Notes under the pieces: generated by a model
Databases searched by the model: none
Seen by the model: the letters and a program-made list of their open reading frames with translations, nothing else
What the model was told of the DNA's origin: nothing
Source: Altererythrobacter sp. KTW20L
Lineage (GTDB): Bacteria; Pseudomonadota; Alphaproteobacteria; Sphingomonadales; Sphingomonadaceae
NCBI RefSeq assembly: GCF_023501975.1
Contig: NZ_JAMFLH010000008.1
Coordinates: forward strand, 1-64,000
Direction of reading: 5' to 3'
DNA length: 64,000 nt
Shown: positions 364 to 12,161 of the stretch, one piece after another
Position numbering within the stretch: the first letter of the stretch is position 1
How the letters are laid out: the number at the start of each line of letters is the position of its first letter
Program-made: the position numbers and the translations under genes

Positions 364-852
364 ATGCAATTGCGGAAATCAGCGTCATTCCAGGCCTATC
401 TGCTGCTTACCTGCCTGGTCCTGGCGGCGATTGTGCCGACAGTCGCACTCGCCAACGGCGATCCTTCGGCCAGCGATGCTCTGCCCGAGGACGGGGTGAT
501 CATCTACTCGCGCGATGTTCGCCACTATATAGGGGATCGCTATTTCCTCAGAGACAGCCAGTCGGCGGTTACTGCCCCGGTCCATCTTATCGTCAACACA
601 ATCGCCCTTGGGCTTGAACCGCTGACAGATTCCGAAAGTTCGGCCATCCTGGCGCCCCTCTCCGCGCAAAGCATGATTGATCCTTCGTTTGCGGTGGCTT
701 CCGAAATGCCTGACGCGAGTGGCGGTTCGGCCAACCTGATTGCGACTACCAGCTCGGTTTCCTCTACGGCCATCTCCACGATAAGCGGCGCGATGCAGTC
801 GCTTTCGGGCGCGCTGGAAAGCCTGTCGGTCCTGTCGGGAGGCGGACAATGA
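364..852 (+). CDS. Secreted protein of unknown function, first gene of the Fap-like operon (FapA position)
   Basis: The 162-residue protein has an N-terminal signal peptide (hydrophobic stretch about 11-28, likely cleavage after ALA at 30). The mature part has no cysteine and ends in a Ser/Gly-rich tail. AGGGAGA at 351-357 supports the ATG at 364. I do not recognise a domain. The gene overlaps the next one by 4 bases, so it is co-transcribed with the repeat proteins. By position it corresponds to fapA of the Pseudomonas fapABCDEF operon, but I see no convincing sequence match to FapA. The role (periplasmic chaperone or regulator of amyloid assembly) is inference from synteny only. Confidence 0.7.
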   Translation: MQLRKSASFQAYLLLTCLVLAAIVPTVALANGDPSASDALPEDGVIIYSRDVRHYIGDRYFLRDSQSAVTAPVHLIVNTIALGLEPLTDSESSAILAPLSAQSMIDPSFAVASEMPDASGGSANLIATTSSVSSTAISTISGAMQSLSGALESLSVLSGGGQ

Positions 853-1454
853 ACCGGCGGATATCCTTCGTTGCAGCAGCGACGGTGCTTGTTGCCGGAG
901 GCGTGATCGCCCAGGCGCAGGACACGTCAGAAGCGGACGACCTTGTGACGGTCGGATCGGGAGACGGATCAGGCAATGTCGGCAGGCTTGCCATCAACCT
1001 CGCAGCAGGGGACCAGAATCAGCAGCTGTCGAGTGCCACCCTGGCGATCGGGGATGTTGCGGCAGTCGGCGAAGGAGCCATCCAGCGCGCTTCGTCGGAT
1101 CGCGGTGACCGTGCGGCCCACATTCACATCGCCGACGATGCCTTTTCCGACAACTCGGGAATTATCAGCCTTAACATTACTGCCGGTCGGCAGAACCAGT
1201 CAGCCAACCTGGCTGCATTCGCAATCGGACAATCGGGCGCTTTGACGGACCAGTTCCTGGAGCAATCGCGCGCGCCCGTCGAACCGCCAGGGGGCATGGA
1301 GACAAATGCCGCTGCACCGAATGACACCGTTGAAATCAGTGACGATGCCTTCGGCCAGAGCAGCGGCCTGTTCCAGGCCAACCTGATCGGTGGCGAGAGG
1401 AATTCCTCTGCCAACACCTTCTCGCTGACGGTTTCAGCGGGTGGACAACCCTGA
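849..1454 (+). CDS. Secreted three-repeat protein, FapB-like candidate (minor amyloid subunit)
   Basis: The 201-residue protein has a signal peptide (about 1-24, AQA before QDT). Three degenerate repeats are visible at residues about 41-69, 103-128 and 172-198, built around N.xAG..NQ..N, for example AINLAAGDQNQQL, SLNITAGRQNQSAN and QANLIGGERNSSAN. The linkers before repeats 2 and 3 both carry I.DDAF followed by SG. There is no cysteine. The Asn/Gln/Ala/Gly-rich repeat with long linkers resembles FapB/FapC of Pseudomonas, and the gene sits second in a fap-like order. It overlaps the upstream gene by 4 bases. The repeats are more degenerate than in the next protein. The amyloid function is inferred. 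Confidence 0.7.
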   Translation: MNRRISFVAAATVLVAGGVIAQAQDTSEADDLVTVGSGDGSGNVGRLAINLAAGDQNQQLSSATLAIGDVAAVGEGAIQRASSDRGDRAAHIHIADDAFSDNSGIISLNITAGRQNQSANLAAFAIGQSGALTDQFLEQSRAPVEPPGGMETNAAAPNDTVEISDDAFGQSSGLFQANLIGGERNSSANTFSLTVSAGGQP

Positions 1455-1475
1455 GTGAAAACAAGGAGAATTGAG

Positions 1476-2501
1476 ATGAAAAAGCTTCTGCTTTCGACCG
1501 CTGCTGCTTCGGCGTTGCTGACCAACCCGGCTTTCGCCCAAGGAAACGGTCCCGTCGATGTCGATGTCGACCTCGAATACAACAACACGATCGATACGAG
1601 CATCGAGACTGATGTCACGTACTGGAAGCAGGTCGGTCTCTTCGGTGGCGCCTTTTTGAGGGGTGTCATTGACGTGGACAGTTCGGCGGTGGCCATCACC
1701 GATGCCAAGCAACTCCAGCAGGGTGTCTCGGTTACCTATCGTGAGGAAAACGAACTGAATGGCGAGAACGGCTATGTCGATGCGGTGTTCGGCCCCGGCT
1801 GGAGTGAGGCAGGCAACGATCCGAACGACGACCTGATCGACGGCACGCTCGAAGGTCAGATTCGTGTCGGCTACTTCGCTCCGATCGTGAACACCGTGGA
1901 CACCTTCGATCTCGATTCTTCGGGCAACACCGGAATCAACCTGGCCGCCGGCTATTTCAATATGCAGATGAATTCGGCAGCGCTGGCGACCTCCAGCAAC
2001 GCCGACGACGAAGCACTGGGTGGCTGGGCTGAAGCATCGACCACTTCGTTCCAGTCGCTTCTGGGTGTGTCGCAACTCGGCGCTCCGGGAGACGTGCTCG
2101 ACCAGGATGAACCAGGCCAGGGTGGTGGATCGAACAACTTCCGCGACCGCAACTCGGTTCTCGGCGGAACGGTCAGCGGATCGGGCAACATTGGTGTCAA
2201 TGCGGCGGCGGGCAGCCTGAACCAGCAGTCCAACCTGATGACGCTGGCCGTGGCCAACGACTCTACGCTGGCCGAGGCCAATGCCGGGCTGATCCAGGCA
2301 TCGACGCTCAGCTTCGTGGAACAGCAGGACAGCCAGAATCTGGTGACCGGGCTTGTGATCGACGGCGCCTCGGGCAACGTCGGCGTCAACTTCGCCGCAG
2401 GTACTGGCAATCAGCAGCTCAACTCCCTGACGATCGCTTCGTCTGCCGGAACCGCTCCCAGCAATGGCGGCGGCAATGGCGGAGGCGGCGACCCGAGCTG
2501 A
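1476..2501 (+). CDS. Secreted three-repeat protein with GVNxAA motifs, FapC-like candidate (major amyloid subunit)
   Basis: The ATG at 1476 is chosen because AAGGAGA lies at 1463-1469 and the protein then begins with a clean signal peptide (MKKLLLSTAAASALLTNPAFA, cleavage after residue 21). A GTG at 1455 would add 7 residues. The protein has 341 residues. Three repeats are at about 148-172, 233-260 and 297-322, each with SGN.GVN.AAG..N.Q.N...LA: GINLAAGYFNMQMN, GVNAAAGSLNQQSN and GVNFAAGTGNQQLN. The GVNxAA motif plus conserved Asn/Gln is the known signature of FapC repeats. Linkers are acidic and Ser-rich and the C-terminus is Gly-rich. There is no cysteine, so the C-terminal CxxC known from Pseudomonas Fap subunits is missing. 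It is the best candidate for the fibre subunit. Confidence 0.75.
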   Translation: MKKLLLSTAAASALLTNPAFAQGNGPVDVDVDLEYNNTIDTSIETDVTYWKQVGLFGGAFLRGVIDVDSSAVAITDAKQLQQGVSVTYREENELNGENGYVDAVFGPGWSEAGNDPNDDLIDGTLEGQIRVGYFAPIVNTVDTFDLDSSGNTGINLAAGYFNMQMNSAALATSSNADDEALGGWAEASTTSFQSLLGVSQLGAPGDVLDQDEPGQGGGSNNFRDRNSVLGGTVSGSGNIGVNAAAGSLNQQSNLMTLAVANDSTLAEANAGLIQASTLSFVEQQDSQNLVTGLVIDGASGNVGVNFAAGTGNQQLNSLTIASSAGTAPSNGGGNGGGGDPS

Positions 2502-2593
2502 TCGGTATCGGTCCGTCAGCTTCCGCCGCCACGACCCGGCGGCCGGAACCCGGCGGCAGATCGGCGTCCCAACCGACGGTCGGCCAACCGGGA

Positions 2594-2621
2594 GGAGGGA
2601 GAGCAAACCAGCTCTCCCTCC
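2594..2621. terminator. Intercistronic hairpin after the FapC-like gene (no T-run)
   Basis: GGAGGGAGAGC (2594-2604), loop AAACCA, GCTCTCCCTCC (2611-2621): a perfect 11-base stem in the 156-base gap between the main subunit gene and the peptidase gene. No run of T follows, so it is more likely an mRNA-stabilising or partial-termination hairpin than a full terminator. Confidence 0.5.
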
Positions 2622-2657
2622 GACCGGCAGGTGCCACCGCAAAATCACGAGAGACGA

Positions 2658-3395
2658 ATGATCACACGGTTCCCCTGTCCAGCGAAAAACGCAATGGCGC
2701 TGAAGGCTGCCATGGTGGCAGCTATGCTGGTGACGGGATGCACCACGAGCCCGGCGGGGCAGCCTGTTCCCTTGTGGCTCGGCGCGGTTTCTACCAACGG
2801 GCCGATCGTGCCGGTAGCGGTGACCAGCTGGAAGGACCGCAAGTTCGAGAATCTGGTGCGACAGCAGACCGATTTCAGCTGCGGTGCCGCGGTCATGGCC
2901 ACCATCTTCAATTTCGCTTTCGGTCGGGACACGACCGAGCAGCAAGTGCTGGTCAACATGCTGCGGATCGCGGATCCCGATATCGTGCGGCAGAGGGGCT
3001 TCTCCCTGCTCGACATGAAGACCTATGCCCAGTCCGTCGGCTACCAGGCAGATGGCTACCGGGTCGATTATGCCACGCTCGAAGCGCTGGAAGTGCCATC
3101 AATCGCGCTGCTCGACATCCGTGGATACAAGCACTTCGTCATCGTCCGGCGCGCCTGGGCCGGTCACATCGCCATCGGTGATCCCGCTTTGGGCAACCGC
3201 ACCATGAGCCGCAGCGAATTCGAAGCGGCCTGGAACCAGATCATCTTCGTCGTAGCAGGCGAGGGCTACGCGCCCGACAACGTTCTGCTGCAACCACCGG
3301 AGCCGCTTTCCGCCGGTCGCCTGCTCGACCTGCACGCATCGATGCCAGGAGCGGAAGTCGTCGAATTCGGCTTCGGGCCCCGCTTCTCGTTTTGA
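2658..3395 (+). CDS. C39-family peptidase lipoprotein, FapD-like
   Basis: The start is the ATG at 2658 (an upstream GTG at 2631 lacks support), giving 245 residues. A lipoprotein signal ends in VTGC with the lipid-anchored Cys at 28. The C39 papain-like fold shows as QTDFSCGAAVMATIF (Cys75), HFVIV (His159) and IGDP (Asp175), which make a complete Cys-His-Asp triad. There is no ABC transporter fused to it, as in the stand-alone peptidase FapD of Pseudomonas, which is needed for amyloid export. The product likely acts in the periplasm, anchored to a membrane, on the subunits or the barrel. It is fourth in the operon, as fapD is. Confidence 0.8.
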   Translation: MITRFPCPAKNAMALKAAMVAAMLVTGCTTSPAGQPVPLWLGAVSTNGPIVPVAVTSWKDRKFENLVRQQTDFSCGAAVMATIFNFAFGRDTTEQQVLVNMLRIADPDIVRQRGFSLLDMKTYAQSVGYQADGYRVDYATLEALEVPSIALLDIRGYKHFVIVRRAWAGHIAIGDPALGNRTMSRSEFEAAWNQIIFVVAGEGYAPDNVLLQPPEPLSAGRLLDLHASMPGAEVVEFGFGPRFSF

Positions 3396-3406
3396 AGGAG
3401 ATTGTC

Positions 3407-4252
3407 ATGAACAATAGTCACCTCTCGACCGCCTCGGCTCGGCGCGGTGCGTTGACCGGCAAGACGATGGCTGTTGTCCTGTTGGCCGGTTCTGCCATCC
3501 CTGCATCCGCGCACATGCCCGACCTTTCTGCCCTTTCGGGCGCGGCCCGGGTAGCCGACGATGAACTGTCCGAAATGCACGGCAAGTTCATCACGCCCAA
3601 GTCGGTCTCCTATTTCGGGATCACCATGCTTTCCAGTTGGCAGGATGCAAGCGGCGTAACCACGTTGGCCAACCTGGTTTTCAGTGTCGATTTCCTGCCC
3701 GGCGGCAACGGCAATCCGGTTCCGCAATTGATGATCGCGTGGTCTCGCGAAGGCGATCCGGCGATGGACGTGACTGACACCCACGAAGGCTATTTCCCCT
3801 ATATTCCGGCGCAGGACGTTCTCGGGGTGGGAGCTCTGGAGACCTTTGCCGGTGCCGCACAGGCGAACGTCATTGCAGGTGCCGACAATCGCACCCTCAA
3901 TGGCATGCAGGTGATGATCGTCCCATCCTCGGTCGTGCCTGCCATGACGCAGCGGGGCATGACCTCCGCTACCGGTCCGGTTGACCTGGTGTTTGCCGAC
4001 GGAGATGAGCTGCACTTCCGGATGGCCGACAACCAGATCGGTATCGTGATGATCGGTAATGGCGGGCTCGACAGCAGCAGCCAGCTTGCGGGCGGAGACA
4101 TCGGCCAGTTGCTGCAGCAGTCGATCCTGAACAGCGACAACAATGCCATCGAGAACCGCGCCTCGGTGATCTTCGGCGTGGATGCGCTGCAGAACGTGCA
4201 GATCGTCCGGGCCCAGGAAGCGCTCAGCGCGATGAAGGGGCACGGCTTCTGA
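3407..4252 (+). CDS. Exported protein, FapE-like candidate
   Basis: The 281-residue protein starts at the ATG at 3407, 6 bases after GAAGGAG (3394-3400). A TTG at 3392 is possible but less likely. A signal peptide ends at ASA near residue 35. The mature start carries DDELSEMHGKFITP followed by a beta-rich region and a Gln/Asn-rich C-terminal third (about 215-260, with QLLQQS and NSDNN). I know no catalytic motif in it. Position five in a fap-like operon and the DDEL.E..G.F segment suggest a FapE counterpart, a minor fibre component in Pseudomonas. The match is weak and rests mostly on gene order. Confidence 0.65.
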   Translation: MNNSHLSTASARRGALTGKTMAVVLLAGSAIPASAHMPDLSALSGAARVADDELSEMHGKFITPKSVSYFGITMLSSWQDASGVTTLANLVFSVDFLPGGNGNPVPQLMIAWSREGDPAMDVTDTHEGYFPYIPAQDVLGVGALETFAGAAQANVIAGADNRTLNGMQVMIVPSSVVPAMTQRGMTSATGPVDLVFADGDELHFRMADNQIGIVMIGNGGLDSSSQLAGGDIGQLLQQSILNSDNNAIENRASVIFGVDALQNVQIVRAQEALSAMKGHGF

Positions 4253-4287
4253 ATTGCGGCAAATTTCCTGGTTGGGAGGAAAGTCGA

Positions 4288-4878
4288 ATGAACAAGTTAT
4301 TGCCCGTTTTCGCCTGCTTTGCCGTGTTCGGCATGTCGCCAGCTATCGCGCAGGAAGAGACGCAGCAGTTTGCAGTTGAAGGGGCTGGCATGCTGACTTG
4401 CGAGCGCTTCATCGCTGCCCGCAGCGATAGCGCCTCGCTCGATTATCAACGGATGATCGGTTTTGTCGAAGGCTATCTCACCGCAGCGAACCTGTATGAG
4501 CCGAACACCTTTGATCTGACGCCGTGGCACAATGCCGTGGCATTCGACATGATCCTTGAACATCATTGCGTGCAGCATCCGGCAGACCGGCTGGTCAGCG
4601 TGACCCAGCGTCTGGTGGTAGGCTTCAGGCCGCTGCGCGTGGCGCAATTTTCGCCATTGCTCGAGGTGGGCGACGGGCAGAACCGCGCCTTTGTGTACGA
4701 GACGATCCTGCGCCGGGCGCAGGCTGCGCTCCAAATCCGCGGGCTCTATTCCGGGCCCGAGGATGGCCAGTTCACCGCAGCGCTCCGCCAGGCATTTGTG
4801 GCCTTCCAGAGCGAAAAGGGCCTGTCCCAGACCGGCGTGCCCGATCCCGCGACTTTGTGGAATCTGCTCAACCCCTGA
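4288..4878 (+). CDS. Periplasmic protein with C-terminal peptidoglycan-binding domain
   Basis: The 196-residue protein has a signal peptide (cleavage near AIA at 21). The N-terminal half carries two cysteines (CERF and HHCVQHP) that could pair, in a small helical domain resembling other small secreted alpha-helical families. The last 50 residues (LQIRGLYSGPEDGQFTAALR, then AFQSEKGL and DPATLWNLL) are a typical PG_binding_1 repeat. GGGAGGAAAG precedes the ATG. It is inserted between the FapE-like and FapF-like genes and has no counterpart in the Pseudomonas operon. It may anchor the secretion machinery to the cell wall; that is inference. Confidence 0.75.
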   Translation: MNKLLPVFACFAVFGMSPAIAQEETQQFAVEGAGMLTCERFIAARSDSASLDYQRMIGFVEGYLTAANLYEPNTFDLTPWHNAVAFDMILEHHCVQHPADRLVSVTQRLVVGFRPLRVAQFSPLLEVGDGQNRAFVYETILRRAQAALQIRGLYSGPEDGQFTAALRQAFVAFQSEKGLSQTGVPDPATLWNLLNP

Positions 4879-4895
4879 CAACAAGGATCATGGCC

Positions 4896-6284
4896 ATGCG
4901 TCACATTTTTCATTCCAATTGCGCCCTTGTTGCCGTTACGGCGACTGCCCTGTTTCTTTCTGGCGAAGCCGTTGCAAAGGATGGCATCCAAGAATTCTCC
5001 GCTGAAGATGAGCAGGTTGAACTCGACCATCTGCGGCAGGAAGTGGGTACCCTACATCAACGCGAGATGGTGTATTTGCTTCGGCTGGAACAGCTCGAAG
5101 AGCGCCTGGCAGCCCTGGAGCAGGGAATCTCTGCGCAGATAGCTCCGATCAATCCCGACGAGGCTGGAGGTTTGCGGGGCGCCTATATCGCTCCGCAGAC
5201 GCTGGCGGTTCCGGACGATCTTTCGCTGGCCCTCTTCCGACGGGAGGATATTGCCCAGGAATTCGGTCGATTGGCCCAAAGTGATCCCCTTGCGACCACG
5301 GATCCAGGCGAGGGCGAGCGCCGGACGCCTGCCCCGACCGAAGCCGTTGTCGCAGTTTCCGAGGAGCAGCAGGGGCGGTTTGGAAGCCGTTTCGGTCTCG
5401 ATCTAGGCCTGGGCTATTCGCACTTCGACAATGCCCGGATTTCGCTCAACGGCTTCCTGGCGCTCGACGCGATCTTCCTGGGAACGATCAGCATCGATCA
5501 GATCAGGTCCGATATCTTCACTTTCGACCCGACCCTGCGCTTTGGCTTCTCCGACCGCCTGTTTATCGACGCGAACCTGCCTCTCCTCTACCGTTCGTCG
5601 AATTTCCTGTCGGGCGGGGCGGGTGGCTCTGCCTCGGCGCTGGTCGAACAGACGGTCCGCGATCAAGGTATAGGGGACCTCAGTTTGGGGGCGAGTTACC
5701 GCCTAGCAGCGGAAACGTCGAGTTGGCCGGATACGGTGATCAATGCTCGCGTGAAATTCCCTACGGGGAGGCATCCCTTCGGCGTGGAATTTGTCGAAGT
5801 GGCCAACAGCGAAGGCAACCTGCAGGTGCCGGAAAGCCTGGCCACAGGCAGCGGGGTCTACGGTGCATCGCTCGGCGTATCCATGCTCAAGACCCTCGAT
5901 CCGATGGTCGTGTTTGGCAACGTCACCTATTTCCACAATTTCGCGGACCACTTTGACGACATCGACGAGAACCAGGGCGATATCCCTGGCCGGGTTGAGA
6001 TCGGCAATGCATGGCAATTCGGCGCCGGGCTGGCCTTTGCGCTCAACGACAGGTCGAGCATCTCGATGTCCTACAGTCAGCGCATCGTCGAGCGCACACG
6101 TCTTACGCCGGACGGACAGGACGAGCGCCCGGTTGTGGGCAGCCAGGCCAATGTCGGTATCGTAAATCTCGGCGCGACCTTCTCGCTGGGTGAACGGCTG
6201 GCGCTGGTGACAAATGTCGGCATCGGCCTGACGGACGATAGCCCTGATATGTCTGTCGGGTTCCGTATCCCGTACCGGTTCTAA
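4896..6284 (+). CDS. Outer-membrane beta-barrel with N-terminal coiled coil, FapF-like exporter candidate
   Basis: The start is taken at the ATG at 4896, 8 bases after AAGGA (4883-4887); an ATG at 4890 is too close. The 462 residues begin with a signal peptide (ending AVA near 27), then a coiled coil at about 40-78 (heptads in LDHLRQEV through LEERLAALEQ). A linker follows, then a beta-barrel from about residue 160 to the end, finishing in IPYRF with a terminal Phe as in outer-membrane proteins. This layout (periplasmic coiled coil plus a barrel with alternating aromatic strands) is that of FapF, the trimeric amyloid secretion channel. It is the last gene of the operon, as fapF is. Confidence 0.75.
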   Translation: MRHIFHSNCALVAVTATALFLSGEAVAKDGIQEFSAEDEQVELDHLRQEVGTLHQREMVYLLRLEQLEERLAALEQGISAQIAPINPDEAGGLRGAYIAPQTLAVPDDLSLALFRREDIAQEFGRLAQSDPLATTDPGEGERRTPAPTEAVVAVSEEQQGRFGSRFGLDLGLGYSHFDNARISLNGFLALDAIFLGTISIDQIRSDIFTFDPTLRFGFSDRLFIDANLPLLYRSSNFLSGGAGGSASALVEQTVRDQGIGDLSLGASYRLAAETSSWPDTVINARVKFPTGRHPFGVEFVEVANSEGNLQVPESLATGSGVYGASLGVSMLKTLDPMVVFGNVTYFHNFADHFDDIDENQGDIPGRVEIGNAWQFGAGLAFALNDRSSISMSYSQRIVERTRLTPDGQDERPVVGSQANVGIVNLGATFSLGERLALVTNVGIGLTDDSPDMSVGFRIPYRF

Positions 6285-6411
6285 TTGAACCTCTCTCCAG
6301 GTGGGCGGTCAGTTCCTAGAACTTGCTGCCATCAGGTTATCTACGGATGGCCCGCCGCTGGGGCGCGGGCCAGTCTTGCCAAAATTGCTTCGGGCAGGAT
6401 GGGGCAGGCGC

Positions 6412-6951
6412 ATGCAATTGGTGATTGATCGGACTATGGCAGAACCCAATCCACCACAACTGCAAACGCGGAATGGTCTGGTCCTGCGACTTCGCGCCGT
6501 GACGATGCCCGATCGGCCATTTGTCGACGAGTTTTACGCCCAGCTCACTATCAGGGATTTCCGCTTCCGCCTTGTCGCCGGATTGAAGGCGGTCAATCCA
6601 CATCAGATTATTGGCAGGATCGAAATGGATCACCGTCACGCGGAACATCTGCTGGCTTTCGATCCGGCCGTTGGCAAACTCGTCGGGAGCGTCATCATCC
6701 TGGCGGACCACGGGCTTGCAAATGCCGAGGCAGCTGTCGTGGTAGTTCCACAATTCAGGGGGGAGGGCATTGGCTGGAGCCTGCTTCGCCATGCCGCAGA
6801 CCTGGCGCGCGAACGCGGGCTGAGCAGCCTGCGTTCGATTGAAACTCTGGAGGATCACGAACCGTTGGAAATTGCTCGCACTTCGGGTTTCCAGGCGATG
6901 CCCTATGACGCCGACCCGACACTCATGATGTTAGAGGCAACGCTCGCCTGA
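6412..6951 (+). CDS. GNAT-family N-acetyltransferase
   Basis: About 179 residues from the ATG at 6412; an ATG at 6436 is an equal alternative and no strong ribosome-binding site decides. The GNAT core is visible: AEAAVVVVPQFRGEGIGWSL is the beta4 strand with the R/Q-x-x-G-x-G/A acetyl-CoA loop, and the C-terminal part (SLRSIETLEDHEPL, then ARTSGFQAMP) is the usual strand 5 region with the late Gly-Phe. Similar domains occur in protein-lysine acetyltransferases linked to acetyl-CoA synthetase control, but the substrate cannot be told. It stands alone between the amyloid-like operon and the hsp20 gene. Confidence 0.75.
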   Translation: MQLVIDRTMAEPNPPQLQTRNGLVLRLRAVTMPDRPFVDEFYAQLTIRDFRFRLVAGLKAVNPHQIIGRIEMDHRHAEHLLAFDPAVGKLVGSVIILADHGLANAEAAVVVVPQFRGEGIGWSLLRHAADLARERGLSSLRSIETLEDHEPLEIARTSGFQAMPYDADPTLMMLEATLA

Positions 6952-6998
6952 ATGGCGGCGACGGCCCTTCGTTTCTGTCCTGGCAAGGATATCAAGGG

Positions 6999-7056
6999 TG
7001 CAGGCGATCCCGGGGGGTCTGGGTGGGGGGACTAAGTCCGTTCGAGATCGCCTGCA
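6999..7056. repeat. 11-base inverted repeat enclosing a G-quadruplex-type sequence
   Basis: TGCAGGCGATC (6999-7009) and GATCGCCTGCA (7046-7056) are perfect inverted copies. The enclosed 36 bases contain GGGGGG, GGG and GGGGGG runs on the plus strand (7012-7030). It lies 48 bases after the acetyltransferase gene and could be a transcription-end or regulatory structure. Confidence 0.5.
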
Positions 7057-7088
7057 GTTCAACAATGGCGGCACGGCGGCATCGAAAT

Positions 7089-7106
7089 AACCCGTAAATC
7101 TCCGGA
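7089..7106 (+). promoter_or_regulatory. Shared island motif, copy 1 (hsp20)
   Basis: AACCCGTAAATCTCCGGA lies 113 bases before the hsp20 start. It differs in one base from the copy at 16087-16104, and related copies precede the BON gene, the FixL-like gene and the lipoprotein gene at similar distances. Confidence 0.6.
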
Positions 7107-7130
7107 TCAATCGCTTCCGTAACTTTCCCA

Positions 7131-7197
7131 ATCCCGGACCTCCGGGATGCGGCCTACTTCGATTGACACGCCGGGCTGCCGCAGGTTTCGGCGTGTC
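7131..7197. promoter_or_regulatory. Two inverted repeats in the hsp20 leader
   Basis: ATCCCGGA-CC-TCCGGGAT (7131-7148) is a perfect 8-base palindrome. GACACGCCG (7165-7173) and CGGCGTGTC (7189-7197) are a perfect 9-base inverted repeat with a 15-base loop, ending 8 bases before the GAGGAG ribosome-binding site (7205-7210). They may be an operator and an mRNA hairpin of the heat-shock gene. The UYGCU signature of ROSE thermometers is not seen. Confidence 0.5.
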
Positions 7198-7219
7198 CAG
7201 ATTTGAGGAGAACATTGCG

Positions 7220-7702
7220 ATGAACGAGCAAGCAACACTGCCGGTACAAAGCGCGCGTGAGCATGGCTTGCCGGCCGTATTCGGACGGCTGCGCGAGGAG
7301 ATCGACCAGCTGTTCGACGATTTCAGCTTTTCCCGCCCCGTCCGGAATATTTTCCAGATGTCTGGCGCCCTGGATTTCAGCCCTGTGGCAGAGATGAAGG
7401 ACCGCAAGGACCACTATGAACTCGCGGTCGAACTTCCGGGGATGGAAGAAAAGGATATCGATATCGAATTCGGCGACGGTGTCCTGGCGATTTCCGGGGA
7501 GAAGCGGGCTGAGAGCGAAGAGAAGTCCGGCGACTACCTCGTCAGCGAGCGCAGCTATGGCGCTTTCCGGCGCAGGTTAACCTTGCCGGCGGATGCCGAT
7601 CCGGATGCAATCGAAGCCAAGTATCGGCACGGGGTGTTGCAGATCAGGGTCAAGAAGGACCAGCAGGCGGTCAACCGGGTGCGCAAGATCGCGGTCGGCT
7701 GA
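7220..7702 (+). CDS. Small heat-shock protein, Hsp20 family
   Basis: The 160-residue protein starts at the ATG at 7220, 9 bases after GAGGAG. The alpha-crystallin domain runs from about 55 to 155, with VAEMKDRKDHYELAVELPGM, then DIDIEFGDGVLAISGEKR, and ends with the conserved AKYRHGVLQIRVKK (the A-x-x-x-x-G-V-L signature). It is an ATP-independent holdase that binds unfolding proteins in the cytoplasm. It heads a plus-strand group with a Pro-rich small protein and a UspA protein. The leader carries the shared island motif and two inverted repeats, which suggests control by the island regulator and possibly by temperature. Confidence 0.95.
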   Translation: MNEQATLPVQSAREHGLPAVFGRLREEIDQLFDDFSFSRPVRNIFQMSGALDFSPVAEMKDRKDHYELAVELPGMEEKDIDIEFGDGVLAISGEKRAESEEKSGDYLVSERSYGAFRRRLTLPADADPDAIEAKYRHGVLQIRVKKDQQAVNRVRKIAVG

Positions 7703-7726
7703 GCCACGATCCGGCGGATTTCCGGC

Positions 7727-7954
7727 ATGGCCAGCGTCCCTCCTTCCGAACCGGACCGGATCGAACCCCAGGAGCCCCCGGGAGTCGATCCGGTGCCGGT
7801 CGAACCGCAGCCGGAATCCCCGCCGGAAGAATTGCCGCCACGGCCCGAAGAGCCTTATCGGGCGCCGGATGAATATCCCCAGCCTGAAGAAAATCTATTG
7901 GCATTCCCGCAGGCGGAATTGTCACGCGACGAACCAAACAGGAGCGCCTTATGA
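7727..7954 (+). CDS. Small proline/glutamate-rich protein
   Basis: The 75-residue protein has about one third Pro and many Glu (PPEELPPRPEEPY and similar). It has no signal peptide, membrane segment or cysteine, and is likely disordered. It lies 24 bases after hsp20 and overlaps the following usp gene by 4 bases, which supports real translation. The composition is unusual and the function unknown. It could be a spurious frame, but the operon spacing argues for a gene. Confidence 0.5.
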   Translation: MASVPPSEPDRIEPQEPPGVDPVPVEPQPESPPEELPPRPEEPYRAPDEYPQPEENLLAFPQAELSRDEPNRSAL

Positions 7955-8745
7955 AGAACATTTTGTTGCTCATCCATGACGACCGAGGCCAAGAGTCCCG
8001 TTTGCAGGTCGCTCTGGACGTGACCCGTGCGCTTGGCGGACATCTCGAGTGCCTCGACGTCTTGACCTTGCCACTGATTGTTTCCGGATATTATTCCGCA
8101 GGATCTGAGGCAGTGATGATCGCGGCAGAGCGTGAACGGGAGTCCGCCATTCGCGCAAGCCTGGAAAACCGTCTCGCGAAAGAGGATGTCACCTGGTCGA
8201 TGGGAGAGACTTACGGCACCTTTGTAGAGGCCCTCACCCGCGCGTCGGACTTTGCAGACTTGATCGTCGTCTCTGCCCGTACTGAGGCACGAGAGGAAGA
8301 CCGGCCGCGCCTTGAAAGCTTGCCTCTCAGAGCCGTTCGACCGATCCTCGCGGTCCCGCCGGGATGCCTCGGACTAGATATCGATGGTTGCGCACTCGTT
8401 GCTTGGGATGGGTCTCGGCCGTGCAGTGAAGCCGTGCGGGCTGCGGTTCCCTTGCTTCAACGCGCCAGGCAGGTGGTTCTGCTGGAAGTCAACCAACCGC
8501 GAGGTGCATTGGCGATGGCCGAAGTTGCTACATACCTTTCGCGCCACGGCATTTCCACGGAACTGGTCGAACGGACCACTACCGGAATGGTTGCCGACAC
8601 CATCCTCGATCAGGCGAGACATTGCAGCGCCGAATTCATCGTGATGGGTGCGTATGGCAAGCCGCGTGCTGCCGAAGCGGTGTTTGGCGGTGTTACCCGC
8701 ACGATGTTGCTCGAAGCGCAAGTGCCCCTGCTGCTGGCGCACTGA
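7951..8745 (+). CDS. Universal stress protein, tandem UspA domains
   Basis: The 264-residue protein has two Usp domains (about 1-135 and 145-264). Domain 1 starts NILLLIHDD; domain 2 ends with EFIVMGAYGKPRAAEAVFGG followed by TRTMLLEAQVPLLLAH, the G-x2-G-x9-G-[ST] type ATP-binding tail in slightly altered form (GAYGKPRAAEAVFGGVT). It is probably a cytoplasmic nucleotide-binding stress protein. It is the third gene of the hsp20 group, translationally coupled to the Pro-rich protein through an ATGA overlap, and is followed by a clear terminator shared with the convergent BON gene. Confidence 0.9.
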   Translation: MKNILLLIHDDRGQESRLQVALDVTRALGGHLECLDVLTLPLIVSGYYSAGSEAVMIAAERERESAIRASLENRLAKEDVTWSMGETYGTFVEALTRASDFADLIVVSARTEAREEDRPRLESLPLRAVRPILAVPPGCLGLDIDGCALVAWDGSRPCSEAVRAAVPLLQRARQVVLLEVNQPRGALAMAEVATYLSRHGISTELVERTTTGMVADTILDQARHCSAEFIVMGAYGKPRAAEAVFGGVTRTMLLEAQVPLLLAH

Positions 8746-8772
8746 CACTTTTGGAAGCCAACCGGATGAAAA

Positions 8773-8808
8773 GGGGCCCGCCGGAAAGACCAGTCCGGCG
8801 GGGCTTTT
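8773..8808. terminator. Bidirectional terminator between usp and the BON gene
   Basis: CCCGCCGGA (8777-8785) pairs with TCCGGCGGG (8794-8802), followed by GCTTTT, and is preceded by AAAAGG for the opposite strand. The two flanking genes converge here. Confidence 0.85.
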
Positions 8809-8823
8809 GTGTCTTCCTGCCAG

Positions 8824-9474
8824 TCAGCTGACGAGGATGCGGTCTTCCACTTGGGTCACGCCAGGCGCAGACCAGGCAGCATCTTCGGCCAGCTTACGCT
8901 CGTGCCAGGCCTTTACCTTGCCACCCAGCGTCACCTTATTGCCGCTGGTGGTGATGGTCACAGTGGCCGCGTCGAGCCCGGCTTGCCGTTCGAACGCATC
9001 CTTGATGCGCTTGCGAATGTCGATGGCACTGGCCCGGTTCCGGATGGTCAAGTTGTTCGACACGCCGACCACGCCCGAAACCTTGCCGGCAGCCTTGGTT
9101 GCCTCATCGCTCTGGAAATTCCACTCGACGTCGCCGGTAAGGCTGACCCAGCCCTTTTCCACCTTCACCACGATGTGCTCTTCGGGAATGAGGATATTGT
9201 ATTTGAACAGGTCGAGGATGCGCTTGGCGATTTCGTGGTCGGCAGTCTTCGCGTCGGACGCGTAGCGGACGTTGAGTTCTTCGGCGATCGCCTTGACACC
9301 CGCTACCCGCTTCGCCGCACGTTCGGCGGCAATTTTCTCGGCGTAGCTTTTCACATAGCCGTTGAGCGCCACCACGCCATCGACCACCGATACGCCGATG
9401 TCAGCGTGGTCGACGCTGGGATCCCATTCGAGTTCATCGAGCACATCGCGCTGCAGTTCACTGTCGGTTTTCAT
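8824..9474 (-). CDS. Triple BON-domain protein
   Basis: The start is the ATG at 9474 (a longer open frame to 9936 is a shadow of the regulator gene); GGAGA lies 6 bases upstream. The 216 residues hold three BON domains (about 3-70, 78-146 and 150-216), each with a V.G.V.L.G.V type core: VSVVDGVVALNGYVKS, KVEKGWVSLTGDVEW and TITTSGNKVTLGGKVKAW. No signal peptide is seen, so this version may be cytoplasmic, unlike OsmY. BON proteins bind lipids or surfaces and are often stress-induced. A degenerate copy of the shared island motif lies 110 bases upstream. Confidence 0.9.
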   Translation of the reverse strand: MKTDSELQRDVLDELEWDPSVDHADIGVSVVDGVVALNGYVKSYAEKIAAERAAKRVAGVKAIAEELNVRYASDAKTADHEIAKRILDLFKYNILIPEEHIVVKVEKGWVSLTGDVEWNFQSDEATKAAGKVSGVVGVSNNLTIRNRASAIDIRKRIKDAFERQAGLDAATVTITTSGNKVTLGGKVKAWHERKLAEDAAWSAPGVTQVEDRILVS

Positions 9475-9584
9475 TGCCTGTCTCCGATGCAAGAGTAAAC
9501 GGCAGGCATCTCGTCCGAATGCGGTCGAATCCACCTGCGCAAGTCTTTTTGCGCGCCGCCGTGCCTGGGCGGGATGCGGTATTG

Positions 9585-9600
9585 TCCGGAGTTGTAGGGG
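9585..9600 (-). promoter_or_regulatory. Shared island motif, copy 3 (BON gene)
   Basis: Read on the minus strand, CCCCTACAACTCCGGA lies 110 bases before the BON-gene start and is followed by ATACCGC, a tail also present after the copy at 16087-16104 (TACCGC). Confidence 0.5.
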
Positions 9601-9601
9601 A

Positions 9602-10270
9602 CTATGTCCTGATCTGGGGGCGCAGGAGGGTATGCTCTTCCAGCCATCGCTGTTCTGAACCAAGTCCGGCCGCAAAAGCAATCCGCAATGCGTCGGCAAA
9701 ATTACTGACCTGGAGTTTTTCCATCGCGTTGGCGCGATAGACTTCCACAGTCCGAGCGCTGATGCCAAGGTCATAGGCAATCGTTTTGTTTGGATAGCCG
9801 CAAGCCAGCCCGTCCAGCACCTCGCGCTCGCGTTCTGTGAGGTGGGCGATTTGCCCCTTCGCCCATTGCTCGCGACTGCGCCGTCCCTCACAGTCGGCAA
9901 GACTGTCGAAAGCGGCTTGTACCGCATCGAGGACATTTTGGCGGTCGGCCGGCTTTTCCAGAAAGTCGATCGCGCCCCCCTGAATCGCTTTCACCGCCAT
10001 GGAAATATCGCCGTGACCCGAAAGCACGATGACCGGGAAGTTGTATCCCAGCCGATGCATTTCGCGCTGGAGTTCAAGCCCGTCCATTCCTGGCATGCGA
10101 ACGTCGATCAGGGCGCAGGAAGGTTCTAACCTGTCCGCCCCTTTGAGGAATGCGGTCGCATCTTCCCAGCGGCTGACCTTGTAGCCCGCAGTTGACAGCA
10201 TAAAGTCGAGCGATCGCCGGATCGCCTCTTCGTCGTCGACCACATGCACAAGCTTGGGCTCAGTCTCCAT
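9602..10270 (-). CDS. FixJ-type response regulator (receiver plus LuxR HTH)
   Basis: The start is the ATG at 10270 inside the end of the kinase gene (11-base overlap), with GAGGAG 9 bases upstream; 222 residues. The receiver (about 6-120) has the acidic pair D12/D13, phosphoacceptor D56 in LIDVRMPGMDG, S84 in VLSGHGD and K106 in LEKPAD. The C-terminal LuxR helix-turn-helix (about 143-200) has LTEREREVLDGLACGYPNK and ISARTVEVYRANAMEKL. Output and order are those of FixJ, phosphorylated by the kinase encoded just upstream and co-translated with it. It probably activates the island promoters carrying the shared motif; that link is inference. Confidence 0.9.
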   Translation of the reverse strand: METEPKLVHVVDDEEAIRRSLDFMLSTAGYKVSRWEDATAFLKGADRLEPSCALIDVRMPGMDGLELQREMHRLGYNFPVIVLSGHGDISMAVKAIQGGAIDFLEKPADRQNVLDAVQAAFDSLADCEGRRSREQWAKGQIAHLTEREREVLDGLACGYPNKTIAYDLGISARTVEVYRANAMEKLQVSNFADALRIAFAAGLGSEQRWLEEHTLLRPQIRT

Positions 10271-12161
10271 CGTCGAACTCCTCGCCAGGTTCGGGCAGGA
10301 TGAAATGGAAGGTGGCACCCCCGGCAGAGCCATTTTCGTGCCAAAGCTTGCCGCCATGTGCCTCGACAATGTTGCGGCATATAGCGAGACCCAGGCCCAT
10401 TCCATCGGACTTGGTCGTCGAGAACGGATCGAACAGGCGGGCAATCCTGGTTTCAGGGACTCCTGGTCCGTTGTCGATGATTGAAAAGCGCACCGACTTC
10501 TCTTGCTGAATAACCGCTACTTCGACCGCGCCGCCGCTACCAATCGCATCAATCGCGTTGCGCACGAGGTTCACGATGACTTGCTGGATCTGGATCCTGT
10601 CGACCAGGATGTTCTCCAACGCCTCGGCTTGACTCACAAAGCACATGACGTTGCGGTATTTGGCTCCGGTTGCCGCCAGTGCGACGGCTTCGCGCGCCAG
10701 GTCCCCGGGGTGCTCGAAAGTCCTGTCCAGTTCTCCGCGGGACACAAAGATGCGCAGTCGCTTGACGATTGCACCGGCCCTCAGCGCTTCCCGCCCAGCT
10801 TCCTCCAGCGCCAGGCTGGCACGTTCAAGCGCTTCCCTGCTGCCCTCTTTGATCAACTCGGCAGAAGTCTGGACGATATTGCCCACCGCCATCAGGGGCT
10901 GGTTCAGTTCATGAGCAATCGCAGTGGCCAGTGTTCCCATTTCGTTGATGCGGGCGAAATGTGCCAACTCCCGCTGGAGATCCTCTAAGTGCGCCTCTGC
11001 CTTTTCCGTTTCGGACAGGTCGTGAAGGAATCCGGTGAACATACGTCGGCCGCCGCCATAGGCCTCGCCTATGCGCAAAGTGTGAGGAAAAACTGTCCCG
11101 TCCTTACGTAATCCCAAGACGCGCCGGTTGCCGCCCATTATCCTGGCCACGCCCGACTGCAGATACCTGGCAAGATAGGCATTGTGCTGCTCGCGATCGG
11201 GGGAGGGCATCAGCATAGACACGTTGCGGCCAATAACCTCGTTGCGGGAATAGCCGAACATTGCCTCGGCAGTGCTGCTAAACGACAGGATAATGCCGCA
11301 TTCGTCGATGACGATCATGGCATCCGGAACGGTTTCCAGGATGGACCGCAGCAGGACTGTGCTGGCTTCGAGCGAGCGGGTCTGGGTATCTTCTTTTGTC
11401 ATATCGCGGACGATCTTACCGAAGCCGCCAGGAAGCTGGCCATCGCGGACAAGACGGGTGATTGTTACGTCGGCGAAAAAGCGGCTTCCATCCTTGCGTG
11501 CTTTCCAGCTCCGGCCTCGATAGAAACCGTTCCTGCGGGCGATTTCCAGCTGCATCGCGGGTAAACCGTGCACACGTTCGGCGTTGTCGATCATGAAGTC
11601 GAACGGCTGGCCAAGCACTTCGGCGTCGCTCCAGCCGAAAAGCCGCTCCGCTCCGCTATTCCAGATCGTCACCTTGCCATCGTCATCCAGCATGCACAGT
11701 GCGAAATTCTCGGCAATGTCGATGAAGAGGGATAACTCCTCCTCAATTATGAGAGAGGTCATCCTGCGTTCGAGATCGGAGGTGAGAACCTCGGTTACGA
11801 ATAGCAGACCTTGCACTTCGCCCGCCTTGTCGTGCCAGGGGACCATGCTCCAGCGCACCCAGTCGACCGAGCCGTCGATGCGTTCGAGCCTGTCGAGGTC
11901 CTTGGAAAGGGATTCCCCCTCCAAAGCCCGGCGGTGAAGTGCCTTTGCCTCTTCGTCCAGTTCGGGAAATATGTCGTAGTGCGAACGGCCAACGAGATTG
12001 TCTTCGCCGAGCCTGTAGTCCGACATCCACCGGCGGCTACAGGCTATGTAGTGCATTTCGCGATCGAACAGAGCGATTGCTGCCGGAACCTGGTCGAGCA
12101 GGGACCAGAGCAGTTCGTTGTCCGGTAAACCGGCCAACAAGGTCTGTCCGCGATTGGTCAT
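10260..12161 (-). CDS. FixL-like PAS sensor histidine kinase, candidate haem-PAS
   Basis: The 633-residue protein has no membrane segment. There are three PAS domains (about 18-125, 140-260 and 272-385). The third reads LETVPDAMIVIDECGIIL, then GRNVSMLMPSPDREQHNAYL: His326 sits where FixL has its haem-ligand His, and a downstream basic segment (GGNRRVLGLRKDGT) matches the haem-pocket region. The kinase core has the H-box AIAHELNQPL (His417), N-box NLVRNAIDAI, G1 DNGPGVP and G2 DGMGLGLAI. It likely senses O2 or redox state and phosphorylates the FixJ-like partner. Haem binding is predicted only. A shared-motif copy 117 bases upstream suggests autoregulation. Confidence 0.88.
   Translation of the reverse strand: MTNRGQTLLAGLPDNELLWSLLDQVPAAIALFDREMHYIACSRRWMSDYRLGEDNLVGRSHYDIFPELDEEAKALHRRALEGESLSKDLDRLERIDGSVDWVRWSMVPWHDKAGEVQGLLFVTEVLTSDLERRMTSLIIEEELSLFIDIAENFALCMLDDDGKVTIWNSGAERLFGWSDAEVLGQPFDFMIDNAERVHGLPAMQLEIARRNGFYRGRSWKARKDGSRFFADVTITRLVRDGQLPGGFGKIVRDMTKEDTQTRSLEASTVLLRSILETVPDAMIVIDECGIILSFSSTAEAMFGYSRNEVIGRNVSMLMPSPDREQHNAYLARYLQSGVARIMGGNRRVLGLRKDGTVFPHTLRIGEAYGGGRRMFTGFLHDLSETEKAEAHLEDLQRELAHFARINEMGTLATAIAHELNQPLMAVGNIVQTSAELIKEGSREALERASLALEEAGREALRAGAIVKRLRIFVSRGELDRTFEHPGDLAREAVALAATGAKYRNVMCFVSQAEALENILVDRIQIQQVIVNLVRNAIDAIGSGGAVEVAVIQQEKSVRFSIIDNGPGVPETRIARLFDPFSTTKSDGMGLGLAICRNIVEAHGGKLWHENGSAGGATFHFILPEPGEEFDDGD

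Follow-up and report, generated by a model that had tools for sequence, protein, structure and literature searches.

A predicted sphingomonad-type operon for Fap functional amyloid with a seventh gene between fapE and fapF

The closest described relatives of the locus presented here are the fapABCDEF operons for functional amyloids of Pseudomonas and other Beta- and Gammaproteobacteria. The locus comprises seven genes at positions 364-6284 on the forward strand of a 64,000-nucleotide stretch from Altererythrobacter sp. KTW20L (assembly GCF_023501975.1, contig NZ_JAMFLH010000008.1), hereafter called the window. It shares with the Pseudomonas-type systems the six fap homologues in the same order, a FapC with three repeats, a C39 peptidase as FapD, a coiled-coil barrel as FapF and, in many loci, a hairpin behind fapC. 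Unlike these systems, the sphingomonad loci carry an additional gene, here called G, for a predicted peptidoglycan-binding protein; moreover, their FapD has a cysteine at the lipobox position, the FapF region ahead of the barrel is longer, the second PTG motif of FapF is altered, and FapC is devoid of a C-terminal CXXC.

The occurrence of Fap in sphingomonads is as such already known. The survey of 2013 (PMC3792158), from which the minimal Fap repeat GX4NX3GX6N was taken, lists only Beta-, Gamma- and Deltaproteobacteria, in agreement with what a first-pass annotation of the window had stated. The same annotation regarded the alphaproteobacterial branch as possibly undescribed, which has to be corrected, because the 2018 review that added 25 Fap genera (PMC6173800, text excerpts) names Erythrobacter, Porphyrobacter and Novosphingobium. 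These genera belong to the same bacterial group and very probably carry the same type of operon; the text excerpts of the review give them by name only, with neither a seventh gene nor a lipidated FapD. Two GTDB-wide screens of 2025 reported 1172 and 1602 fap clusters and, according to excerpts of both papers, a near-universal synteny of six genes, or of five where fapA is missing (PMC12392863, PMC12822426). As far as the accessible description goes, screening was done with models of known Fap proteins only, so that an added gene would escape it. Among the matches listed from the open-licence literature, a limited basis for a negative, neither a seventh fap gene nor a lipidated FapD is described. 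Of interest here are the constant seventh gene and the probably lipidated FapD.

Identity of the operon

The seven contiguous open reading frames lie on the same strand in the order fapA-B-C-D-E-G-F, with one overlap of 4 bases and otherwise gaps of 11-156 bases. They confirm the tightly spaced genes for exported proteins of the first-pass annotation: the N termini of all seven products, read by eye, resemble those of secreted proteins with signal peptides or of lipoproteins, and none of the genes contains an internal stop. Models of the NCBIfam collection were matched by the predicted minor or nucleating amyloid subunit FapB (849-1454, 201 residues; NF058557, E=6.1e-20), the predicted major subunit FapC (1476-2501 with an alternative GTG start at 1455, 341 residues; NF058558, E=2.5e-22), the C39 cysteine peptidase and predicted lipoprotein FapD (2658-3395, alternative GTG start at 2631; NF058616, E=2.6e-67), the exported, putatively fibre-associated FapE (3407-4252, alternative TTG start at 3392; NF058559, E=1.4e-17), and the predicted coiled-coil outer-membrane beta-barrel exporter FapF (4896-6284, 462 residues; NF058560, E=9.5e-111). 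FapD also matched the Pfam family Peptidase_C39 (PF03412, E=2.8e-20), and its catalytic motifs DFSCGAA, YKHFV and GDPALG are intact. FapC holds three copies of the minimal Fap repeat (residues 150, 237 and 300); FapB has two (residues 104 and 173) and a degenerate third one at residue 45, its last Asn being replaced by Ser (by eye). Both products had been called repeat proteins in the first-pass annotation, and the repeats exceed chance, since none of 2000 shuffled versions of either sequence reached the strict counts of three and two.

Structural comparisons point in the same direction. FapF aligns over residues 142/143-462 with the FapF crystal structures 5o65, 5o67 and 5o68 (E 4e-86 to 7e-85), and FapC aligns with the solved FapC fibrils 9nqd (E=1.3e-11) and 9u4u (E=1.7e-11). 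The AlphaFold model of FapC is predicted to be beta-rich and has a mean predicted local distance difference test score (pLDDT) of 65.7, with values of 85-89 in the blocks holding the repeats. Its sole PDB match at E <= 0.001 in Foldseek was the FapC fibril 9u4u (E 3e-6), and the other fibril, 9nqd, ranked third (E 0.064); the Foldseek score includes the amino-acid sequence, so that this fold match is not independent of homology.

The first gene (364-852, 162 residues), which was listed as unknown in the first-pass annotation, has no match in Pfam or NCBIfam. A profile made from its sphingomonad copies matches the gene preceding fapB in 12 of 18 fap loci from outside the Alphaproteobacteria (non-alpha loci), ten times at E 8.5e-11 to 5.5e-6 and twice at 0.002-0.004. 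Since the profile picks the gene ahead of fapB in these loci, the first gene is, judged from profile and position, FapA, a putative exported subunit chaperone, and the idea of a novel gene was rejected for the same reason. FapA is absent from some known Fap members. It is described as an intrinsically disordered chaperone in the accessible part of a 2025 review (PMC12822426).

A FapF tree built on 53 rows unites those of the sphingomonad clade, 26 in number, in a single clade with a value of 100 in the Shimodaira-Hasegawa-like approximate likelihood ratio test (SH-aLRT), in line with the branch of its own that had been proposed for the Alphaproteobacteria. This clade nests inside the Fap clade (SH-aLRT 100), and eight rows of a second type of FapF-like proteins stand separately. 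The tree was obtained by a quick method with SH-aLRT values and without bootstrap, and several long branches were flagged. The sphingomonad-clade set consists of the window and 25 further loci (11 + 14) after removal of the duplicates L072, L074, L076 and L084; the near copies L079, L080 and L083 are all counted among the 25, L071 falls in the clade, and L054 is cut at a contig end and lacks fapA together with some of the beginning of the operon. A locus from another alphaproteobacterial family, L104, was not resolved as sister of the sphingomonad FapF clade; hence, no claim is made that alphaproteobacterial Fap is a single clade.

Among 397 genomes of the host family, FapF matches were obtained in 62: 15 strong ones (321-405 bits), 39 rows of 73-160 bits and another 10 that are weak and partial, with two genomes contributing two rows each. 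Within the genus, two of the 12 genomes sampled, the window's own included, gave a FapF match, which indicates a patchy distribution of the operon. In all 21 gene comparisons (seven genes against three relatives, FapD taken from base 2661), the nonsynonymous rate dN was lower than the synonymous rate dS, with ratios of about 0.13-0.45, FapA being highest, at dS values of 0.9-1.9 that are near saturation. Judged from these ratios, all seven genes are under purifying selection.

Several points weigh against the identification as Fap. None of the products reaches the equivalog cut-off of its NCBIfam model (FapB 71.6 of 190, FapC 80 of 195, FapD 226.4 of 330, FapE 63.7 of 250 and FapF 370.5 of 700 bits). 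The fit between the FapC model and 9u4u is modest, with a template modelling (TM) score of 0.48 of the target and 0.22 of the query and a root-mean-square deviation of 9.8. Of the two PTG motifs of FapF, the first is retained, but the second reads ATG or is lacking in each of the 26 sphingomonad copies. Regarding the cut-offs, the 700 bits for FapF are also missed by 11 of the 18 fap loci from outside the Alphaproteobacteria, and in a sample of 398 genomes of the phylum only seven loci exceed them, all from family f44. The NCBIfam cut-offs therefore appear to mark one narrow subgroup and not Fap as a whole. The profile search suggested along with the first-pass annotation thus returned FapB to FapF, each below its cut-off, and together with the FapA model, the structure matches of FapF and FapC and the tree it bears out the proposed Fap system. 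That 364-6284 represents a complete Fap functional-amyloid operon appears nearly certain at the level of sequence.

The seventh gene between fapE and fapF

Gene G (4288-4878) separates fapE from fapF in the window, in all 25 of the related sphingomonad-clade loci and also in L104. The models for A to G were built from the same sphingomonad loci, so that presence calls there are partly circular, whereas those for the non-alpha loci are not. In the latter, G is missing from 18 of 18; among the alphaproteobacterial Fap loci sampled it is constant. The first-pass annotation, which saw the gene order of fapABCDEF in the window, was right for A to F but not for the one additional gene; this gene had been listed as one for a peptidoglycan-binding protein, but not recognized as the departure from the known operon. 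Fifteen of the 18 non-alpha loci have 8-68 bases between fapE and fapF, the exceptions being L094, L098 and L103 (no fapE detected in the last one). In L094, a non-alpha fap operon at 4145-11838 of its stretch, fapE is separated from fapF by a gene for a PAS-GGDEF protein (diguanylate cyclase); upstream, a gene for a sigma-54-type activator was seen by eye. L098 (2736-12266) contains two tandem B-C-D-E sets with a single FapF in the stretch, the nearer fapE ending 55 bases from fapF.

A profile of the N-terminal domain of G matched 22 of the 397 family genomes, 15 of them strongly and seven more weakly; across the 18 non-alpha whole genomes it gave no match, in a scan from which a known-positive genome was absent. 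The genomes with strong FapF (>= 321 bits) and those with strong G (>= 145 bits) are the identical 15 of 397 in the host family, and in a class-wide sample of 385 genomes the four with strong FapF are the four with the best G matches. Homologues of the G domain without strong FapF were found in at least 7 of 397 family and at least 17 of 385 class genomes, where weak homologues may be missed because scoring covered at most 11 (family) or 12 (class) first-look candidates per genome. Due to these homologues, G is, by its sequence, assigned to an alphaproteobacterial family that extends beyond Fap and is not exclusive to it, which speaks against G as a dedicated Fap component. The same homologues, many of them lacking an obvious surface-protein neighbour, would be compatible with the alternative that G is a bystander or a general wall protein caught in the operon with no role in fibre export. 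This alternative is regarded as unlikely in view of the invariable position of G, the same in all 26 loci of the sphingomonad clade and in L104, the 15 of 15 coincidence of strong-G and strong-FapF genomes, its dN/dS of about 0.15, and the location of two homologues beside giant QQNNG-repeat proteins and of three others beside exported proteins of 805-1727 residues. It is likely that G acts in Fap biogenesis, and a complete Fap operon of the sphingomonad branch with G as seventh component is, with high confidence, the best overall explanation of the locus. Such a component, found throughout the alphaproteobacterial Fap loci sampled but not among the 18 others, would provide a handle on Fap biogenesis, namely on how subunits stay soluble at the exporter, on the placement of the trimeric coiled-coil FapF within the periplasm and on the site of FapD action.

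The genomic neighbourhood of G homologues outside Fap is diverse. In L120 (2668-10409), an exported protein of 838 residues with QQNNGxxNxIG repeats is accompanied by a gene for a G-like wall-binding protein, a short repeat protein, a C39 peptidase, a FapE-like end and a FapF-like barrel gene in opposite orientation, a set of the second FapD/FapF type; a sigma-54-type activator gene was seen nearby by eye. L145 (984-15712) encodes an exported protein of 3063 residues with 28 copies of VQQNNG between a G-like gene and genes of the second FapD/FapE/FapF-like type. The G-like genes of L121, L123 and L146 adjoin large exported proteins of 805, 1384 and 1727 residues, respectively; the one in L121 is not a repeat protein, Ala, Ser, Thr, Gly and Asn are abundant in the one of L123 and less so in the one of L146, and neither of the latter two contains exact repeats. 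In L125 (3780-9800), the G-like gene is followed by TolQ/ExbB-, ExbD-, TonB-like and TolB-type genes resembling an extra Tol-type set, of which the TolQ/ExbB and TolB genes alone were confirmed by Pfam; a further reading frame beside this G-like gene is not considered reliable. No surface-protein partner was seen beside the G homologues of L122, L124, L126-L128, L137-L144 and L147. Hence, the sequences make a tie between G homologues and surface fibres suggestive, but not general.

The C-terminal part of G (residues 142-190) matches PF01471 (PG_binding_1) with E=1.6e-11 and 44.6 bits compared to a gathering score of 23, and is a predicted peptidoglycan-binding domain. In an alignment of 27 copies, C38 and C94 are invariant, F28, G34, G62, Y63, N68, D76 and P79 are, among others, shared as well, and most copies end with TGVPDPATLWxLLNP. 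The confident AlphaFold model of the exported protein (mean pLDDT 86.5) displays a helical part with both invariant cysteines, which probably form a disulfide, followed by a hairpin and the wall-binding domain. Foldseek retrieved no PDB fold match for G at E <= 0.001; the best ones were peptidoglycan enzymes with such domains (SltB3 0.004, SltB2 0.011, SleB 0.08). The N-terminal domain alone has no Pfam match. It fits YmgD, HdeA and HdeB with TM scores of 0.60-0.65 of the target but at E > 1 (HdeA E 1.5), and the Pfam model HdeA gives E=0.036 on whole G, below its cut-off. With HdeA and HdeB (TM 0.60-0.62 of the target) the domain may share a small helical periplasmic fold, and HdeA carries a cysteine pair like the G domain, whereas G differs in its additional peptidoglycan-binding domain and in the Foldseek E value above 1. 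The favoured reading is a putative chaperone-like domain of the periplasm joined to a wall anchor; that a holdase function is derived from a weak resemblance to HdeA has to be counted against it.

Further marks of the branch and a possible mechanism

The second distinctive feature concerns FapD. In 26 of 26 sphingomonad-clade loci a cysteine is located 46 or 47 residues ahead of the catalytic Cys, and in the window it belongs to a lipobox-like VTGC 47 residues before it. The strict lipobox pattern is fitted by 22 of these 26 proteins; the remaining four fall outside the pattern despite the presence of the cysteine, which is a point against lipidation. Judged by this lipobox rule, sphingomonad FapD is probably lipidated. 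Among the non-alpha FapD proteins, 16 of 18 are clearly without a cysteine at the lipobox position, L103 and perhaps L099 being comparable to the sphingomonads, and FapD of L104 has none there either. For Pseudomonas FapD, the accessible text of PMC5557850 gives a Sec signal and a periplasmic location. Furthermore, the region before the FapF barrel is longer in the sphingomonad clade, with a median of 164.5 compared to 135.5 residues, although the rows are related by descent and the p value of this comparison is not independent evidence. A G-binding site in this longer N-terminal region is weakly suggested at best. The C-terminal CXXC of FapC is not found in sphingomonad FapC and is present in 4 of 16 non-alpha loci with FapC listed; since the motif is also lacking in the majority of non-alpha loci, its loss was not retained as a mark of the clade.

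The largest gap of the operon, 156 bases between fapC and fapD, contains a strong stem-loop at 2588-2627 of the forward strand. The region 2499-2670 folds with z=-4.19, and the best hairpin has -34.7 kcal/mol, a stability that 0 of 60 shuffles attained. A hairpin of <= -18 kcal/mol just after fapC was found in 27 of 27 alphaproteobacterial loci. At the remaining four junctions, 11-18 of the 27 loci have one, which points to a high hairpin background in this GC-rich DNA. The hairpin after fapC was matched by at most one of 60 dinucleotide shuffles in 19 of 27 alphaproteobacterial and 10 of 18 non-alpha loci; the remaining eight loci of each group are less clear, for example L056 with 7 and L089 with 34 of 60 shuffles. 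A similar structure is thus seen behind fapC in many of the fap operons examined, alphaproteobacterial and others, and among the matches listed from the literature, a weak negative, no report of it was found. Stem-loops that set the stoichiometry within operons are known from other systems (e.g. PMC8219983 and PMC9045158, excerpts). By analogy, the fapC-fapD hairpin may set subunit stoichiometry as partial terminator or mRNA stabilizer, which would be a simple and testable account of subunit excess.

From the work on Pseudomonas, the following course of events can be proposed for the window. FapA would keep FapB and FapC unfolded in the periplasm, proteolysis by FapD would license export, FapF would export both subunits, FapB would nucleate FapC, and FapE would tie the fibre to the cell. 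The hairpin could ensure that FapB and FapC are produced in excess over the exporter. G might be bound to the wall via its C-terminal domain with the helical domain working beside FapF, either as a holdase or docking post that serves the subunits or by anchoring the FapF coiled coil in the wall. A lipidated FapD would likewise be held at a membrane, such that processing and export of the subunits might occur at one tethered site. The particular role of G as tether or holdase is put forward tentatively, with slightly less confidence than doubt. More speculative, and in our opinion rather doubtful, is the wider notion of an envelope-tethered amyloid secretion machine with G as wall-anchored holdase or docking factor by FapF and a lipid-anchored FapD, whose G module would have been recruited repeatedly in Alphaproteobacteria for other giant surface fibres including those of L120 and L145.

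Surroundings of the operon and second-type systems

The first base of the window is also the first base of its contig (3.09 Mb assembly, 35 contigs), and the view upstream of fapA ends there. At this edge, on the reverse strand at 1-105, a truncated N-terminal part of an IS4/IS5-type insertion-sequence transposase was found (PF13340, E=0.007, 17 bits, below the cut-off), which we regard as context only; the repeat nature of this element may explain the assembly break. The operon could also be present but silent or decaying, for instance as a consequence of the insertion sequence just upstream. The matches in just two of 12 genomes of the genus would agree with such a state, as would the lack of a detectable sigma-70-like site upstream of fapA in a scan limited to this one promoter type. 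However, the genes are without internal stops and under purifying selection, the catalytic motifs are intact, and a scan for a single promoter type says little against expression; a silent or decaying operon is therefore regarded as highly unlikely.

It might also be supposed that the locus is not true Fap but belongs to a divergent second family of FapD/FapF-like systems, such as the Fil-like or the 'DNS-repeat' systems of sphingomonads. The Fil pilus system (FilB/FilC) and other non-Fap pairs share with the window a C39 peptidase and a FapF-like barrel, the FilB and FilC models match its D and F products too, and second-type systems are common here, as FapF-like matches of 73-160 bits were obtained for 39 of the 397 genomes of the family. 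Nevertheless, FapF of the window scores 367-371 bits instead of 73-160, FilB reaches 112 compared to 226 bits for FapD and FilC 60 compared to 370 bits for FapF, the tree sets the eight second-type rows apart as a clade of their own (SH-aLRT 100), and FapB and FapC queries match nothing in the 25 second-type loci of the family or in L105-L120. On the model scores and the FapF tree, a second-type identity was rejected as very improbable. Least of all can the locus be explained as an ordinary COG4313/MetA-type porin for hydrophobic compounds beside unrelated exported repeat adhesins: PF13557 (phenol MetA) does match barrel residues 408-462 (E=2.2e-8) and, in the accessible text of PMC6173800 and PMC5557850, FapF is structurally related to COG4313 channels, but the FapF model, the FapF crystal structures matched across 321 residues, the tree, the neighbours FapB, C, D and E matching each its own model in Fap order and the conservation of the entire cluster in 26 loci (L054 being incomplete at its contig end) leave this reading, which was rejected, a practically negligible probability.

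The second-type systems deserve mention in their own right. They were seen in 25 sphingomonad loci (L031-L048, L050 and L065-L070), with a FapD-like gene in 25 of 25, and may represent an unnamed fibre system; the substrates scanned gave no useful family match. The examples inspected contain, besides a regulator of the LuxR or Crp type, genes for a C39 peptidase, a FapF-like barrel and a FapE-like protein, together with long exported low-complexity proteins that are DNS/TDNS- or N/S-rich and often end with a module of the AFQNFAGLQALNxNTG type. These are accompanied by a short partner protein ending with AFQNLNGL..NANTGNNVAIN or a related sequence.

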